A model generated the notes under the pieces. The model saw only the letters and a list, made by a program, of their open reading frames with translations, was not told the origin of the DNA and ran no database searches. From positions 124,001 through 188,000 of IMG/VR virus record IMGVR_UViG_3300032753_000003: a DNA stretch of 64,000 bases. One strand, written 5' to 3'. The DNA is from a virus. This document shows, piece by piece, positions 5,191 to 48,934 of the stretch (the first letter of the stretch is position 1; every line of letters starts with the position of its first letter). Position numbers and translations under genes: made by a program.

Positions 5191-7128
5191 ATGACCAATA
5201 TCTTTGACGATATCTTGCAAGAACAGAAAACCAAAAAGCGAGAAACATTTGGCTTTATAGATTGGTTGAAGCTATGCAAGAAGGATCCAAATACATATGC
5301 ATCTGCAGCAGAACGTATGTTAGCTGCAATAGGCGAACCAGAAACAGTAGATACCAGTAAGGATCCTCGACTAAGTAGGATATTCTTAAATCGCACATTG
5401 CGAGTATATCCCGCGTTCAGCGATTTCTATGGCATGGAAGAAACTATAGAAAGAATAGTTGGATACTTCAGGCATGCTGCACAGGGTCTAGAAGAAAAGA
5501 AGCAGATCCTATATCTACTTGGTCCAGTTGGCGGCGGTAAGAGCAGCTTAGCCGAACGCCTCAAGGAACTAATCACCAAACTTCCATTCTACGTTTTAAC
5601 AGCCGAAGACGGAACTCTTAGCCCCGTGTTTGAGAGCCCGCTAGGTGTTTTTGATCCCAACAAGCATGCTGCTAGATTGCAAAAAGATTATGGTATAGAT
5701 TCTAGATATCTAACAGGTATCATGAGTCCCTGGGCAGTCAAGAGGCTTGCAGAATATGACGGCGATGTAAGTCGCTTCAAAGTCACAAAGGTTTGGCCCA
5801 GCAAGCTAGAACAAATTGGTGTTGTTAAAACTGAACCAGGCGACGATAACAACCAAGACATCAGCAGCCTAGTTGGCAAGACCAACATACGCATGCTAGA
5901 GCATTTTAGCCAAAATGATCCAGACAGTTATTCATTCTCTGGAGCACTATGCCGTGGTAATCAGGGCATTATGGAATTTGTTGAAATGTTCAAAGCACCA
6001 ATCAAAATGCTGCATCCTCTGCTAACTGCTACGCAGGAAGGCAATTATATAGGTACTGAAGCTATTTCAGCTATACCTTTTACAGGTATTGTGCTAGCAC
6101 ATAGCAACGAAGCAGAATGGCAGAGTTTCAAAAACAACAAGAACAACGAAGCATTCATTGATCGTATCTATGTTGTCAAAGTACCATACTGCCTACGCAT
6201 CACTGATGAGACCAAGATCTATGAGAAGATGCTGGAACACAGCAGCTTAGGCAATGCCAATTGCGCGCCTCAGACACTTGATATGCTCAGCAAGTTCTGC
6301 GTATTGACTAGGTTAACACCCCATGAGAACAGCAGTGCATACAGCAAGATGCGAGTCTATGACGGAGAGACCATAAAGGATGTTGATCCAAAAGCTCGTA
6401 GCATGCAGGAATATCGTGATGCTGCAGGTGTTGATGAAGGCATGAGTGGTATCAGCACTCGCTTTGCATTCAAAGTGCTCAGCAAGACATTTAACTTTGA
6501 TCCAAATGAGATAGCAGCAGATCCTGTTCATCTCATGTATGTATTAGAAGACAGCATCCGCAGAGAGCAATTCAGTACCGATACAGAAGAGAAGTACATA
6601 AACTTCATCAAAGACTATCTGTCTCCCAAGTATGCTGAATTCATCGGCAATGAAATACAAAAAGCCTATCTTGCAAGTTATTCTGAATTTGGACAATCAA
6701 CTTTTGATAGGTATATTGAATATGCTGACGCATGGATACAAGAAATAGACTATAAGGACCCAGATACAGGTAATCTCTATGATAGAGATATACTTAACAA
6801 AGAATTAGAGAAAATTGAAAAACCAGCAGGCATAGCTAATCCAAAAGATTTTAGGCACGAAGTCGTTAACTTTGTATTAAGGGCTAGAGCAAGGAACGGC
6901 GGAATTGTAGTATGGACTAGCTATGAGAAACTTCGAGATGTTATCGAGAAGAAGATGTTTGCAAGTGTAGAAGATCTACTTCCGGTAATTAGTTTTGAAA
7001 GTAAAAAAGATAGAGATGTTGAAGTAAAACATGTTGATTTTGTTAATAGAATGATTGAGCGTGGATATACAGAAAAACAGGTGCGACGATTAGTTGAATG
7101 GCACATGAGAGTACAAAAATCAAGCTAA
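5191..7128 (+). CDS. prkA: PrkA-family serine protein kinase (AAA domain)
   Basis: 645 residues, the family length. The N-terminal half is an AAA+-type domain with Walker A GPVGGGKSS (111-119), preceded by YGMEETIERIV; the C-terminal half carries the PrkA C-terminal region. In bacteria PrkA (YeaG) is encoded with YeaH and, in many proteobacteria, SpoVR (YcgB); the three act together in starvation and stress responses. The same order is kept here, interrupted only by a GIY-YIG gene whose ATG overlaps the prkA stop. It starts at ATG 5191 with GGCGGAG upstream. A phage copy suggests control of host stress physiology late in infection, which is inference. Confidence 0.92.
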   Translation: MTNIFDDILQEQKTKKRETFGFIDWLKLCKKDPNTYASAAERMLAAIGEPETVDTSKDPRLSRIFLNRTLRVYPAFSDFYGMEETIERIVGYFRHAAQGLEEKKQILYLLGPVGGGKSSLAERLKELITKLPFYVLTAEDGTLSPVFESPLGVFDPNKHAARLQKDYGIDSRYLTGIMSPWAVKRLAEYDGDVSRFKVTKVWPSKLEQIGVVKTEPGDDNNQDISSLVGKTNIRMLEHFSQNDPDSYSFSGALCRGNQGIMEFVEMFKAPIKMLHPLLTATQEGNYIGTEAISAIPFTGIVLAHSNEAEWQSFKNNKNNEAFIDRIYVVKVPYCLRITDETKIYEKMLEHSSLGNANCAPQTLDMLSKFCVLTRLTPHENSSAYSKMRVYDGETIKDVDPKARSMQEYRDAAGVDEGMSGISTRFAFKVLSKTFNFDPNEIAADPVHLMYVLEDSIRREQFSTDTEEKYINFIKDYLSPKYAEFIGNEIQKAYLASYSEFGQSTFDRYIEYADAWIQEIDYKDPDTGNLYDRDILNKELEKIEKPAGIANPKDFRHEVVNFVLRARARNGGIVVWTSYEKLRDVIEKKMFASVEDLLPVISFESKKDRDVEVKHVDFVNRMIERGYTEKQVRRLVEWHMRVQKSS

Positions 7129-7862
7129 TGGTGCGTACAGGTCATCTATATAAGATTACTAGGTTGTCAACCGGTGAATACTATTACGGTATTCACCGGG
7201 GTGACAAATTTGACGGATACTGAGGCAGCGGGCGTATTATTAGAAATTATATTAAAACACACGGAACAGATGATTTAATCTATGAGATCATAGCAATAGG
7301 ATCATACGATGAAATGATTAAGCTTGAGGAACAGATAGTTAATGTTGATGAAATATCAAAAGAACTATGTTGGAATTTAAAAACAGGCGGATATAGAGGT
7401 TTACCTTCCAATGAATCGAGGATGCTTATATCTAAGGCCGGATTGGGTCGTAGATATTCAAAAGATAGGACTGATAAGATACAAAAATCTAGAGCGTTGC
7501 GAATAAAAGAAATTGGTCAAAAGATATCAGAATCCAATCGAGGTCAAATTAGATCTAATGAAGCTAGAAAAAAGATATCTGATCGAAAAAAAGAGAAGAT
7601 GACTCCCGAAATAAGAAAAAGAATATCTGCAGCAAAATTAGGAACATCTAATCCAGCTTGGCTGGGATATGTGAAGACGCCAGATGGTATATTTGAGAGC
7701 TCTATGGTTGCAGCATTGTATTACGGCAAGACAGATAAGACCATACGAGATAGGATCAAAAGTATAAATCCAAAATTTAACGGTTGGATGTTTATAAAAA
7801 CACTTGATATGGTATCTAAGATAATATCTAGGTCTGATATAAGAGGAGACGTAGGTGAGTGA
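7128..7862 (+). pseudogene. GIY-YIG homing endonuclease gene interrupted by an in-frame TGA
   Basis: From ATG 7128, which overlaps the prkA stop, the frame reads HLYKITRLSTGEYYYGIHRG, a GIY-YIG start, to GY-stop-GSGR: the TGA at 7221-7223 (codon 32) falls where relatives such as the gene at 14212 have Met (NYMGSG). Beyond it the frame stays open to 7862, with nuclease-associated NUMOD3-like repeats (KISESNRG, KISDRKKEK, RISAAKLG) and a NUMOD1-like segment (TPDGIFESSMVAALYYG...RDRIKS). Translation could resume at ATG 7314, but that part lacks the catalytic module. It looks like a homing gene newly inserted between prkA and yeaH and already inactivated. It overlaps the yeaH start by eight bases. 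Confidence 0.8.
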
Positions 7863-9126
7863 TTATCATATAATCGATAGACGAGAAAATCCCAAAGGCA
7901 AGAACCTTCCAAACAGGCAAAAATTCCTCAGGAAGGTTCGCGATCATCTCAAAACGCAAGTAAGAGATGCTATGGGCAAAAAGAAGATAACAGACACGGG
8001 CGGAACTGACATATCAGTACCGTCTGATGGTATCAACGAGCCTAGCTTTGATTACGACCGCAGCACTGGCGAATGGGACAGAATACTACCCGGCAACAGA
8101 GACTTTGTTGCCGGCGATCGAGTAAAAAAGCCGGATCAAAGTGGCGGCGGCGGCGGCGGAAGCAAAGCAGGCAAAGGTGGAGAAGGTGAGGATGATTTTA
8201 AATTCACTCTCACCCGCGACGAATACCTAGATATGGTGTTTGAAGATCTAGAACTACCCGATTTGGTCAAGACCAGCGAAAAGGCTGCAGTGGCTTGGCA
8301 TCGCATGCGTTCTGGATTCAAAACAGATGGCAGTCCCAGCCAACTTGATCTAGTACGCAGCCTGAAGAACAGTTTGGGTAGGAGACTGGCTCTTCGCAAA
8401 CCGATAGAAAATAAAATAGAAAATCTAGAGAAGATGTTAGAGGATGCCGATGAAGATCTATCTAACAAATTACAAGAAGAGATAGAAGGCCTCAAACGTA
8501 AAAAATCTGCGGTTCCTTGGGTAGATCCAATAGATTTACGCTATCGTAGATGGGATCAAAGACCAATACCAAACAGCCAAGCAGTGATGTTCTGCCTTAT
8601 GGACGTTAGCGGCAGTATGGGCGATAGAGAAAAAGAAATAGCCAAGAGATTTTATCTGTTGCTGTATTTGTTCCTTGAACGCCAATATGAAAAAGTACAA
8701 ATTGTGTTTGTAAGACATACAGATGTTGCTAAGGAAGTAGATGAGCAAGAATTCTTCTATGGAACAGAAAGCGGCGGAACAATTGTCAGTAGCGGATTAC
8801 AATTAGTGCATGACATTATAAATGAGAGATATCCAACTGACGCATGGAACATATATGTTGTGCAGGCATCAGACGGAGATAATTTCCCCAGTGACAACGA
8901 CGATTGTACTGAGTTAATGGGCAAGATTCTGCCTCTTGTGCAATATTATGTCTATGCAGAAGTAAAATCATATAATCCAATGTTTCAGAATTCTACCAAC
9001 CTTTGGGATATGATGGAAAGATTGGTGCGCAACTACGAGCAATTGGCGGTGGTATCAATACCATCTGTTGATAGAGTAGTGTCTATATTCAGGCAAGTGT
9101 TTGCCAAGGAGAGAACTAATGGTTGA
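7855..9126 (+). CDS. yeaH: YeaH-like protein (DUF444, von Willebrand A-type domain)
   Basis: 423 residues from a GTG start with AGGAG upstream; it overlaps the end of the GIY-YIG gene. After a charged N-terminus it has a glycine-rich linker (97-103, seven-residue run of G then S), a coiled-coil-like stretch (about 184-215) and a C-terminal von Willebrand A domain with the metal site D-V-S-G-S (250-254). YeaH-family proteins are partners of PrkA, encoded with it in enterobacteria and many other proteobacteria. The gene order prkA-yeaH-spoVR supports a conserved functional unit taken over by the phage. Confidence 0.92.
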   Translation: MSDYHIIDRRENPKGKNLPNRQKFLRKVRDHLKTQVRDAMGKKKITDTGGTDISVPSDGINEPSFDYDRSTGEWDRILPGNRDFVAGDRVKKPDQSGGGGGGSKAGKGGEGEDDFKFTLTRDEYLDMVFEDLELPDLVKTSEKAAVAWHRMRSGFKTDGSPSQLDLVRSLKNSLGRRLALRKPIENKIENLEKMLEDADEDLSNKLQEEIEGLKRKKSAVPWVDPIDLRYRRWDQRPIPNSQAVMFCLMDVSGSMGDREKEIAKRFYLLLYLFLERQYEKVQIVFVRHTDVAKEVDEQEFFYGTESGGTIVSSGLQLVHDIINERYPTDAWNIYVVQASDGDNFPSDNDDCTELMGKILPLVQYYVYAEVKSYNPMFQNSTNLWDMMERLVRNYEQLAVVSIPSVDRVVSIFRQVFAKERTNG

Positions 9127-10594
9127 ACCTTTGTTCACTAGTAACGAATGGGACTTTGATTTAATACGTCGTGCTATGGACGAATGCGGCATAATAGCTA
9201 GAGAAGAGCTGCGGCTCAACACCTATGAAAATCAAATTGAAATAGTAACTAGCGAACAAATGCTCGATGCATATGCAAGTTCAGGTTTACCTGTTATGTA
9301 TAAGCATTGGAGCTTTGGTAAGAAATTTAGCCATGAACGAGATCTATATCAAAAAGGCAAGCGAGGGTTGGCTTACGAACTGGTGTTGAATACTCAACCC
9401 ACAATCAATTACCTCATGGAAGAAAATACAGCTTGCATGCAAGTATTGGTTATAGCGCATGCTGCATACGGCCACAATCATGTATTCAAAAATAACTACA
9501 TGTTCAAACAATGGACTGATGCAGAAAGCATCGTTGACTATCTAATATTTGCAAAAAACTACATACAAAAATGCGAAGAACGTTATGGTGAAGATGTTGT
9601 GGAAGCCACACTCAATGCTGCGCATTCTCTAATGATGAACGGTATAGATCGTTACAAGAGGCCTAGAAAGCTCAGTATGGTTGAGGAACAGCTAAAACAA
9701 AAAGAACGCACAGAATATCTAGAACGCACAGTCAACGATCTGTGGAGGACTATTCCAAAAACTGAGCAAGATAAGGAAGAATATCCAAAGGGTAGATTTC
9801 CTGCAAACCCAGAAGAAAATATATTGTATTTCTTAGAGAAGAATAGCCCTGTACTAGAGACTTGGCAGCGAGAAATATTGCGTATAGTAAGAAAGTTAGC
9901 TCAATATTTCTATCCACAGTATCAGACCAAAGTACTAAACGAAGGTTGGGCTAGTTTTACGCACTATTACATAATGAATCGTTTGCATGACAAAGGGTTA
10001 CTAACAGACGGTGCTATGCTGGAGTTTTTACAGTCACATACCAGTGTGCTATTTCAACCCACATATGATAAACCCTACTACAACGGGCTAAACCCTTACT
10101 ATCTAGGATTTGAGATATTTGCAGACATACGCAGAATGTGTGAGAATCCAGACGATGAGGATAGAGAACTATTCCCACTTATTGTGGGTACAGATTGGGT
10201 AGATACTTGCCTAGATGCTGTTGCTAACTATCGCGACGAAAGTTTCATACGTCAATTCTTAGGACCAAAAGTAGTTCGCAAGATGAAATTGTTTAGATTG
10301 GTTGACGACAAACGAGAAGAAACCTATCTTATCAGTGCTATTCAAAATCGAGAAGGTTTCCGTGAAATAAGGAACAGTCTTGCCAACAGCTATGAACTTG
10401 ATGAATGGTGTCCAAAGATTGAAGTTACCGATGCTGACATAAAAGGCGATAGAACTTTGACTCTAACCTATCATAGAGAACACGGAAGGTCTATGGCAGA
10501 TAGCTGGAAGCCTGTAATGAAGCATGTTAGACACCTCTGGGGTCATAACGTCAAGCTGGTTACCAAAAGAGGTAATGTTATAGGAGAGATTTGA
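9119..10594 (+). CDS. spoVR: SpoVR family protein
   Basis: 491 residues from ATG 9119, with AAGGAG at 9105-9110 and an eight-base overlap with yeaH, so translation is coupled. A longer frame starting at TTG 9101 has no better signal. It shows the SpoVR/YcgB features: HWSFGKKF near residue 62, YELVLNTQP (about 84-92), a NEGWASFTHYYIMNRL segment with the conserved E-x-W-A-x-F-x-H-x-x-I, and HTSVLFQP. SpoVR was named for spore-cortex formation in Bacillus; in Gram-negative bacteria it is a stress protein linked to PrkA/YeaH and its biochemical role is not settled. Confidence 0.92.
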   Translation: MVEPLFTSNEWDFDLIRRAMDECGIIAREELRLNTYENQIEIVTSEQMLDAYASSGLPVMYKHWSFGKKFSHERDLYQKGKRGLAYELVLNTQPTINYLMEENTACMQVLVIAHAAYGHNHVFKNNYMFKQWTDAESIVDYLIFAKNYIQKCEERYGEDVVEATLNAAHSLMMNGIDRYKRPRKLSMVEEQLKQKERTEYLERTVNDLWRTIPKTEQDKEEYPKGRFPANPEENILYFLEKNSPVLETWQREILRIVRKLAQYFYPQYQTKVLNEGWASFTHYYIMNRLHDKGLLTDGAMLEFLQSHTSVLFQPTYDKPYYNGLNPYYLGFEIFADIRRMCENPDDEDRELFPLIVGTDWVDTCLDAVANYRDESFIRQFLGPKVVRKMKLFRLVDDKREETYLISAIQNREGFREIRNSLANSYELDEWCPKIEVTDADIKGDRTLTLTYHREHGRSMADSWKPVMKHVRHLWGHNVKLVTKRGNVIGEI

Positions 10595-47440: not shown

Positions 47441-47495
47441 GTTTGTTATTGACGTAAGATAAATATAGTTGTATATTATTGCATGATAGCAATGT

Positions 47496-47584
47496 GGAAG
47501 GGTGGCTGAGTGGTCGAAAGCGGCACCCTGCTAAGGTGTTGTACCTGGTAACGGGTACCGAGGGTTCGAATCCCTCCCCTTCCA
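47496..47584 (+). tRNA. tRNA-Ser (GCT)
   Basis: Acceptor GGAAGGG/CCCTTCC, anticodon loop CTGCTAA (anticodon GCT), the long variable arm of class II tRNAs (TACCTGGTAACGGGTA), T-stem GAGGG/CCCTC with loop TTCGAAT. CCA is not encoded (the sequence continues ACAT). Confidence 0.93.
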
Positions 47585-48021
47585 CATTGCCATTAGTTAG
47601 ACTTTCAAACGAGTCAAATCTCTTTTTTCTGCACAAGCGAACTATTGCGTAGAAAGCTATTGCGGGCTTCGGCCAACCTTTCAAAAATCCACTAAAAATT
47701 TATGGCAATCTTTCAGGTAGACGGATTGCGATTCTAGTTACATACTGAAGCTTACATAGCCCCTTATATGTATATCTAGAAGGTTGCTAGCACTCCGACA
47801 ATTGCTAGATTTGGGCACAGTACGACCACGCTTTAGGTTGAATGATCGCGGCTCTGAGAAAAAGCAACCGCAACGGTACTTCTGTTTGATTGACTAGGCA
47901 CAGTACCGTCCCGTTGGATACCAATCGGCTGGAATAATCGGGTACAGGCCAACCGCCCGTCTTGCTATGCAAGTCTCCTCAGTCTTTTATGGCTAAAGAA
48001 CTCATCATGATGCTCTTTACA

Positions 48022-48050
48022 CATACTGATCCCATAAAGGGATCAGTATG
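48022..48050. repeat. 12-bp perfect hairpin
   Basis: CATACTGATCCC and its reverse complement around an ATAAA loop. No U-tract follows, so it is not a simple terminator; it may cap the structured RNA region. Confidence 0.8.
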
Positions 48051-48054
48051 GTTG

Positions 48055-48110
48055 AATCTATCATGATACATAAAAGAATATAAATCTATCATGATACATA
48101 AAAGAATATA
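48055..48110. repeat. 28-bp tandem duplication
   Basis: Two exact, adjacent copies of a 28-base unit (48055-48082 and 48083-48110) that begins AATCTATCATGATACAT. AT-rich, within the non-coding interval. It could be a protein-binding iteron pair or a recent slippage duplication. Confidence 0.9.
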
Positions 48111-48193
48111 AAATTGTCGAAGTGAGGATAGCGAGCTTGTCGAGCGTTAGACTCACTGAAGACTGGTTCGATGCTACGCATCGACCATATAAA

Positions 48194-48934
48194 TTACATT
48201 TGTTTCTCTACATCCTTAACATGGGACATAAACAAATTGGGATGCATCAATAAACAAGGCGCACTGAGCCATACTTCTCTAGGACCAGCTGGTTTAAAAT
48301 TATTCCAATCAGTCAACCAAAAACTATTAGCATCTGGATCAAATATCTCATCCATTAGCTTTACACCGTTGGTTGCATTTGATAATAATTCTTGATTGGT
48401 AAACGTATAAATCTTTTCTTTGGGTACTTCCATGTTTCCTAGCAAGTGTAGAAGCTCTGTATAAGTGAGGTTCTTTGGATCGTGTTTAGATACCTTTGAT
48501 AACTTATCCTGTAGCCAATCAGAGAAGTCGCCAAGACTACTTACAGATTTTCTAAAACTTCTCCAGATATCAACAGTTAGACATACACCTATCTTGGTAT
48601 TAACTAATGGGATGACTACCCTCACTGTTCCGTAAGAGCCTGCATAGGATCTGTCTGTACAGCATATCAAACTACGACTACGTTTGGGGTATTCTCGCCA
48701 CTTTGGGCTATTGTCCATCCACAACGTATAATAGTTACCTATTCTCATAGCGCTTTTTCGAGCAGTAGTTCTAGCAGTAGGATCTGTGAGCATTACGTCT
48801 GCTCGGCTATAAGTTTCGCTGCCTCGATATATTGCAACGTTATGCTCAATAAACTTGTCAGCAGCAAAGCGAATTTCTTTCTGATACTTTTCAAGTAGCT
48901 CTTTTTCGTTAGTCTCTATCTCATGTAGTCTCAT
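48194..48934 (-). CDS. predicted ADP-ribosyltransferase-like protein, paralogue A
   Basis: 246 residues starting MRLHEIE. The order of motifs fits the R-S-E class of ADP-ribosyltransferases: Arg37 in AIYRGS, an S-x-S in KRSRSLICCT (Ser86, Ser88), and Glu220 in REVWLSAPCLLM, which matches the E-V-[ML]-[IL] catalytic strand of these toxins. The region DPTARTTARKSAM...NYYTLWMDN is conserved with paralogue B. ATG 48934 overlaps the stop of paralogue B (ATGA). It is the last gene of a minus-strand late operon. The fold assignment is inferred from motifs; activity is unproven. Confidence 0.6.
   Translation of the reverse strand: MRLHEIETNEKELLEKYQKEIRFAADKFIEHNVAIYRGSETYSRADVMLTDPTARTTARKSAMRIGNYYTLWMDNSPKWREYPKRSRSLICCTDRSYAGSYGTVRVVIPLVNTKIGVCLTVDIWRSFRKSVSSLGDFSDWLQDKLSKVSKHDPKNLTYTELLHLLGNMEVPKEKIYTFTNQELLSNATNGVKLMDEIFDPDANSFWLTDWNNFKPAGPREVWLSAPCLLMHPNLFMSHVKDVEKQM

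Follow-up and report, generated by a model that had tools for sequence, protein, structure and literature searches.

What does a phage encode in a 608-nt stretch that holds no gene and lies between a tRNA gene and a convergent protein gene? The stretch belongs to the window, the 64,000 nt analysed here, which are bases 124001–188000 of a 199,865-base virus record. The record, with rIIA/rIIB-type genes and about 37 tRNAs, appears to be part of the genome of a large T4-like phage. The answer that we consider probable is that the gap encodes an uncatalogued structured RNA of large T4-like phages, located at about 47759–48050 on the plus strand and proposed to act in trans. The 608-nt gap as a whole is not one single RNA. 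In window coordinates, its borders and flanking parts are as follows.

47449–47477, plus strand: predicted sigma-70-like promoter (TTGACG-17-TATATT), predicted start about 12 nt before tRNA-Ser
47496–47585, plus strand: tRNA-Ser (GCU), identified by ARAGORN and Rfam
47586–47758, plus strand: spacer with a weak UUCG hairpin, no homolog in relatives, folding z −0.8 to −1.6
48055–48112: AT-rich, 28-bp perfect tandem duplication with the palindrome TATCATGATA
48117–48185, minus strand: a pair of hairpins immediately 3′ of the convergent gene, judged by position relative to its stop codon at 48194
48194–48934, minus strand: convergent protein gene, PHROG 12810, stop codon at 48194

The gap (47586–48193) starts directly after the tRNA, which ends at 47585, and it lacks a credible protein frame; both points agree with the preliminary description. 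Its frames score −25 to +6 in a codon model trained on the same phage, in which neighbouring genes of at least 125 codons score about 37–82. Six-frame translations found nothing in PHROG better than E 0.16. A pseudogene, a degenerate tRNA or an intron has no support from Rfam at E≤10 or from the six-frame PHROG comparison. Similarly, the GC skew tracks gene direction and gives no signal of a replication origin. Nearly all of the rest of the genome had been described as packed with genes. This gap does rank with the larger gaps of the record, but others of 400–900 nt are present.

The region had been proposed as a ROOL/GOLLD-type RNA of about 600 bases. Over the whole window, Rfam at gathering scores yields tRNAs only. 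At E≤10 in the gap region, only the tRNA rises above a family threshold, and the remaining matches are sub-threshold, belong to unrelated families and lie mostly on the tRNA. The covariance models of ROOL, GOLLD, HEARO and OLE have no match in the gap even at E≤10, and Rfam 15 gave nothing credible for the window or for two relatives described below, L053 and G008. The same search method finds a true GOLLD (RF02032, 169 bits, a full-length model match) in the same phage at record positions 119300–119697 (L008:19300–19697), about 4.3 kb before the window start, which serves as the positive control. This GOLLD is preceded by a promoter of the same form as that before tRNA-Ser (TTGACC-17-TATATT) and followed by a hairpin terminator, and the full RNA is likely to cover about 118895–119735. 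The phage carries a GOLLD, located elsewhere than the gap.

Blastn of the gap against 50,697 phage and 72,556 plasmid records returned chance or tRNA matches only, and scans of IMG/VR with the flanking proteins gave no close relative. An 18-nt pattern from the A-rich positions 47857–47874 matched only three IMG/VR contigs, L052, L053 and L054. The choice of this pattern was a guess; it was one of four tried in IMG/VR, and the other three gave chance or no matches. A UUCG-hairpin pattern retrieved 4 contigs in which the shared part is only 18–19 nt, and a 17-mer from 47911–47927 had no match in IMG/VR. An exact 20-mer match in one Bacillota genome is likely chance. As judged from the sequences, the weight of the homology rests on its extension past the 18-nt pattern. 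The three contigs resemble the gap well beyond it: blastn gives 80–82% identity over 57–62 nt, nhmmer aligns up to 231 nt with E values between 1e-5 and 1e-4, and in L052 the similarity reaches the hairpin at 48050.

A covariance model, R1, was built from the window and L052–L054, with a core of 177 positions. Over 39 viral records it identified a fifth member in the 302-kb record G008 (44.2 bits, E 8.5e-12), the next-best match reaching 17 bits. Within the window's own record the gap alone scores, at 136.6 bits, a value that has to be read with the window being a training row of R1; the next match has 12. When the window or G008 is left out of the profile, it is still retrieved, with E 4.3e-9 and E 6.8e-14, respectively. 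There are thus five members in three phage lineages, three of the five being close relatives with 84–92% identity. The homologous part spans about 47759–48050 only, so that the conserved RNA measures about 230–290 nt and not the 600 bases first supposed. Among the relatives whose records were searched with R1, Atu_ph07, SCTP-2, Melnitz and megaphages of 484–642 kb included, none held a convincing member; weak matches in G014, LR745206 and Melnitz looked like coding sequence or chance on inspection. Junctions at hub genes, in six records as well as in Phosso, 121Q and BF, contain no significant model match, and blastn of the L053 and G008 RNAs against named phages found no homologs.

The conserved RNA can be divided into the following elements, all on the plus strand.

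47759–47816: 5′ domain P1, putative pairing of GCCC (47759–47762) with GGGC (47813–47816)
47814–47985: conserved core of the RNA (R1, 136.6 bits; window-free profile, E 4.3e-9)
47848–47871: 24-nt core GCGGCUCUGAGAAAAAGCAACCGC, stem GCGG/CCGC and A-rich loop
47874–47908: hairpin H2, CGGUA/UACCG and CUGU/ACAG, compensatory changes across members
47888–47984: proposed pseudoknot PK2, H2 loop GAUUGA (47888–47893) with UCAGUC (47979–47984)
47939–47959: proposed pseudoknot helix PK3, putative pairing of CGGG (47939–47942) with CCCG (47956–47959)
47961–47973: hairpin H5, CUUGC-UAU-GCAAG, two pairs changed on both sides
48022–48050: hairpin H6, 12 bp perfect, counterpart in all five members, compensatory changes

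The window, L052, L053 and L054 share the 24-base core (GCGGCTCTGAGAAAAAGCAACCGC) without a single difference, and in G008 its stem reads GCAG/CUGC, a compensatory change from G-C to A-U. P1 occupies a consistent position in all five members, with GUGUC/GACAC in L052–L054 and CCAGC/GCUGG in G008, and encloses a variable insert with the hairpin CUAGCA/UGCUAG at 47787–47808. PK3 would pair as GGGGG/CCUCC in the other members. PK2 takes the form CUGUUAU/AUAACAG in L052–L054 and is not evident in G008, while H5 appears as UGUA/UACA in L052 and L053 and as UACA/UGUA in L054 and is not seen in G008. The CGGUA strand of H2 has an alternative partner in the window (GGAUACCA), and H2 and H3 have competing partners there. 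H6 is probably the 3′ end or terminator of the RNA and, being symmetric, can also be used from the other strand.

On the alignment fitted to the model, 87% of cells are paired, against 25–43% in slid versions, and 8 pairs are changed on both sides. The covariation score is 0.364, compared with at most 0.17 after sliding, and none of 500 shuffles reaches it; this check, which the preliminary description had called for, favours structure. RNAalifold, given no structure but an alignment that had been fitted to the one proposed, likewise predicts H2 with both sides of pairs changed. P1, H2, H5, PK2, PK3 and H6 can each be drawn by hand with different letters in different members. Since the structure was drawn from these same sequences, the covariation counts lean towards it, and the few sequences give moderate support for compensatory base-pair changes. 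Sequence comparison thereby establishes a homologous sequence in three lineages, with no protein frame and no Rfam match, whose pairs appear to be kept by compensatory changes. The earlier expectation of a structured non-coding RNA is upheld, and so is the choice to leave a new class as an option; no catalogued family matches, and the RNA looks like a new small family or class. A literature search of incomplete coverage found no description of such an RNA, and an unlisted description may exist.

The preliminary description counted nine perfect or near-perfect hairpins. An excess of long stems over shuffles stands, but the count is lower and the spread uneven. Perfect stems of at least 5 bp number 7 (5.3 in shuffles), and those of at least 6 bp number 6 (1.4 in shuffles, with 0 of 100 reaching 6). 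The whole 608 nt has a folding z of −6.7, alike on both strands, because of its last 206 nt (−7.9; −6.6 on the other strand). The first 402 nt, at −1.65/−1.9, stay inside the range of other gaps and of coding windows (mean −0.8, sd 1.3). Several further convergent junctions in this phage carry long symmetric hairpins as well, and the 3′ hairpins of the gap are therefore best read as terminators. Those across 48022–48190 are probably terminators of the convergent junction, the pair at 48117–48185 probably serving the PHROG 12810 gene. The duplication at 48055–48112 is recent and lies outside the RNA, and its palindrome is a single site in the whole record. Two features once thought meaningful lose that standing: the UUCG tetraloop sits on a stem of 3 bp that is not part of the conserved RNA, and the repeated decamer is not conserved in the relatives, its pattern having matched only unrelated contigs, 10 in all.

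In L053 and G008 the gene order is an Hc1-like gene, a nuclease-type gene, the RNA, a convergent small gene and a baseplate hub gene. The nuclease-type gene is GIY-YIG in L053 and RusA-like in G008, and the Hc1-like gene of G008 was assigned by sequence resemblance to that of L053. By eye, the upstream and downstream sequence of L052 and L054 is the same. In L053 and G008 the RNA stands at the 3′ end of a plus-strand gene block and faces the convergent gene. ARAGORN found no tRNA near the RNA in the relatives; the tRNA neighbour in the window is therefore not a family trait, and the supposed tRNA link gives way, in L053 and G008, to a place behind the nuclease-type gene. In G008, tandem repeats built on TTAGGCACA and ATTAGGCGATCTAGGCACA lie immediately before the RNA (L091:2060–2195), and TAGGCACA of these repeats also occurs inside the RNA of L052–L054.

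The promoter at 47449–47477 is likely to start the unit that runs into the RNA, as far as its predicted form indicates. Transcription would proceed from it through tRNA-Ser into the RNA; release of the RNA from this precursor would take place at the 3′ end of the tRNA, and the RNA itself would end at H6. It may then persist in a compact pseudoknotted form acting in trans, with its invariant A-rich loop, CUCUGAGAAAAAGCAA, available for contact with a molecule of the host or the phage; the ribosome, RNA polymerase and a nuclease are conceivable partners. Trans action is probable, the argument for it being confined to the absent downstream sense gene and the invariant core. As no sense gene lies behind the RNA, a riboswitch is disfavoured.

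The main rival is a role in cis. The element would then belong to a 3′-untranslated region, where it would terminate the upstream transcript or make it more stable and would shield it from the opposite unit, and it would have no function in trans. The inspected members all lie at the 3′ end of a plus-strand unit, face a minus-strand gene and end in H6, and the long symmetric hairpins at convergent junctions of this phage fit the same role. Nevertheless, an element for termination or stability needs neither a 24-nt invariant core nor two pseudoknots, and the upstream genes vary (tRNA-Ser, GIY-YIG, RusA-like); we regard the cis role as unlikely, but with a real chance of being right. It is quite unlikely that no RNA function exists and that the gap is a spacer with terminators between convergent units, its similarity to the relatives reflecting a DNA element that they have in common, for instance a site of replication or recombination. 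The strong hairpins at 48000–48190 with average folding upstream, and the DNA-processing genes upstream in the relatives, would suit such a site, but the changes are compensatory in RNA helices and the GC skew of the gap follows gene direction without a sign of an origin.

A tmRNA typically contains pseudoknots with A-rich loops. Some aquatic phages encode tmRNAs (PMC9004378). For the present RNA, too, several pseudoknots with A-rich loops are proposed, and a one-piece tmRNA is found in a phage contig (L033:5271–5527, 73.9 bits, tag AKSFAVAA). It is nevertheless very improbable that the RNA is a tmRNA or RNase P-like RNA so highly derived that the parts recognised by the models have been lost. 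At E≤10 there is no Rfam match to one-piece tmRNA (RF00023), permuted tmRNA (RF04321) or RNase P, ARAGORN reports no tmRNA in the members, and neither a tRNA-like domain with T arm nor a tag frame ending in alanines was found by ARAGORN and Rfam. A divergent GOLLD or ROOL is hardly credible, although phage origin, the adjoining tRNA, the long gene-free stretch and the GOLLD elsewhere in the phage would all suit one. GOLLD (RF02032) is likewise phage-encoded, structured and often near tRNA genes, but exceeds 800 nt in many members and has a conserved 3′ domain. In place of a single RNA above about 700–800 nt, homology here covers less than 300 nt, no match to the RF02032 model with its 3′ domain appears at E≤10, and the gap does not resemble the phage's own GOLLD in any meaningful way. 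ROOL, a phage or prophage RNA often near tRNA islands, is also larger; its model has no match at E≤10, and the present relatives are not at tRNA islands.

To our knowledge, a function has been assigned to few large RNAs of phages. The structures of GOLLD and ROOL are recent, the latter an RNA-only nanocage and the former an RNA whose expression rises at lysis (PMC12286853); their functions are still open. A compact, conserved RNA with an invariant 24-nt core, such as the one proposed here for large T4-like phages, has a size that permits expression, pull-down and structure determination, and the conserved gene neighbourhood provides a handle for more members, cultured phages included. As a tentative extension, the five members may be the first known examples of a novel class of pseudoknotted RNAs acting in trans, broadly spread in jumbo and other T4-like phages and fast-changing around an invariant A-rich core, which would bind a central host machine while the phage infects. 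A functional counterpart might then lie in an 800-nt stretch of phages 121Q and BF.

These are gene-free stretches of about 800 nt on the minus strand, L109:2538–3373 in Escherichia phage 121Q, where gene 595 adjoins, and L110:2544–3346 in Serratia phage BF. They lie beside baseplate hub genes, the same place as that of the new RNA in L053 and G008, and are 65% identical over most of their length. They have no Rfam match at gathering scores and no detectable homology to the new RNA, and likely represent an unannotated structured RNA in cultured jumbo phages.

Several other features were observed. Window positions 5191–10594 contain a PrkA/YeaG-type serine kinase gene followed by two genes that resemble its bacterial partners YeaH and SpoVR, this likeness being one of sequence appearance only; the kinase is 67% identical to that of Enterobacter phage LAU1 and about 60% to those of megaphages of 635–642 kb. 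Dispersed gene-poor elements of the record pair 97928–98249 with 110203–110444 and 90701–91308 with 165933–166379, sharing 54–84 nt at 75–85% identity. Two copies of a 150-base repeat, 98.7% identical, stand at the very end of the record (199438–199864), perhaps an assembly edge. In L003:2135–5990 the DNA polymerase is split into two separately encoded parts.
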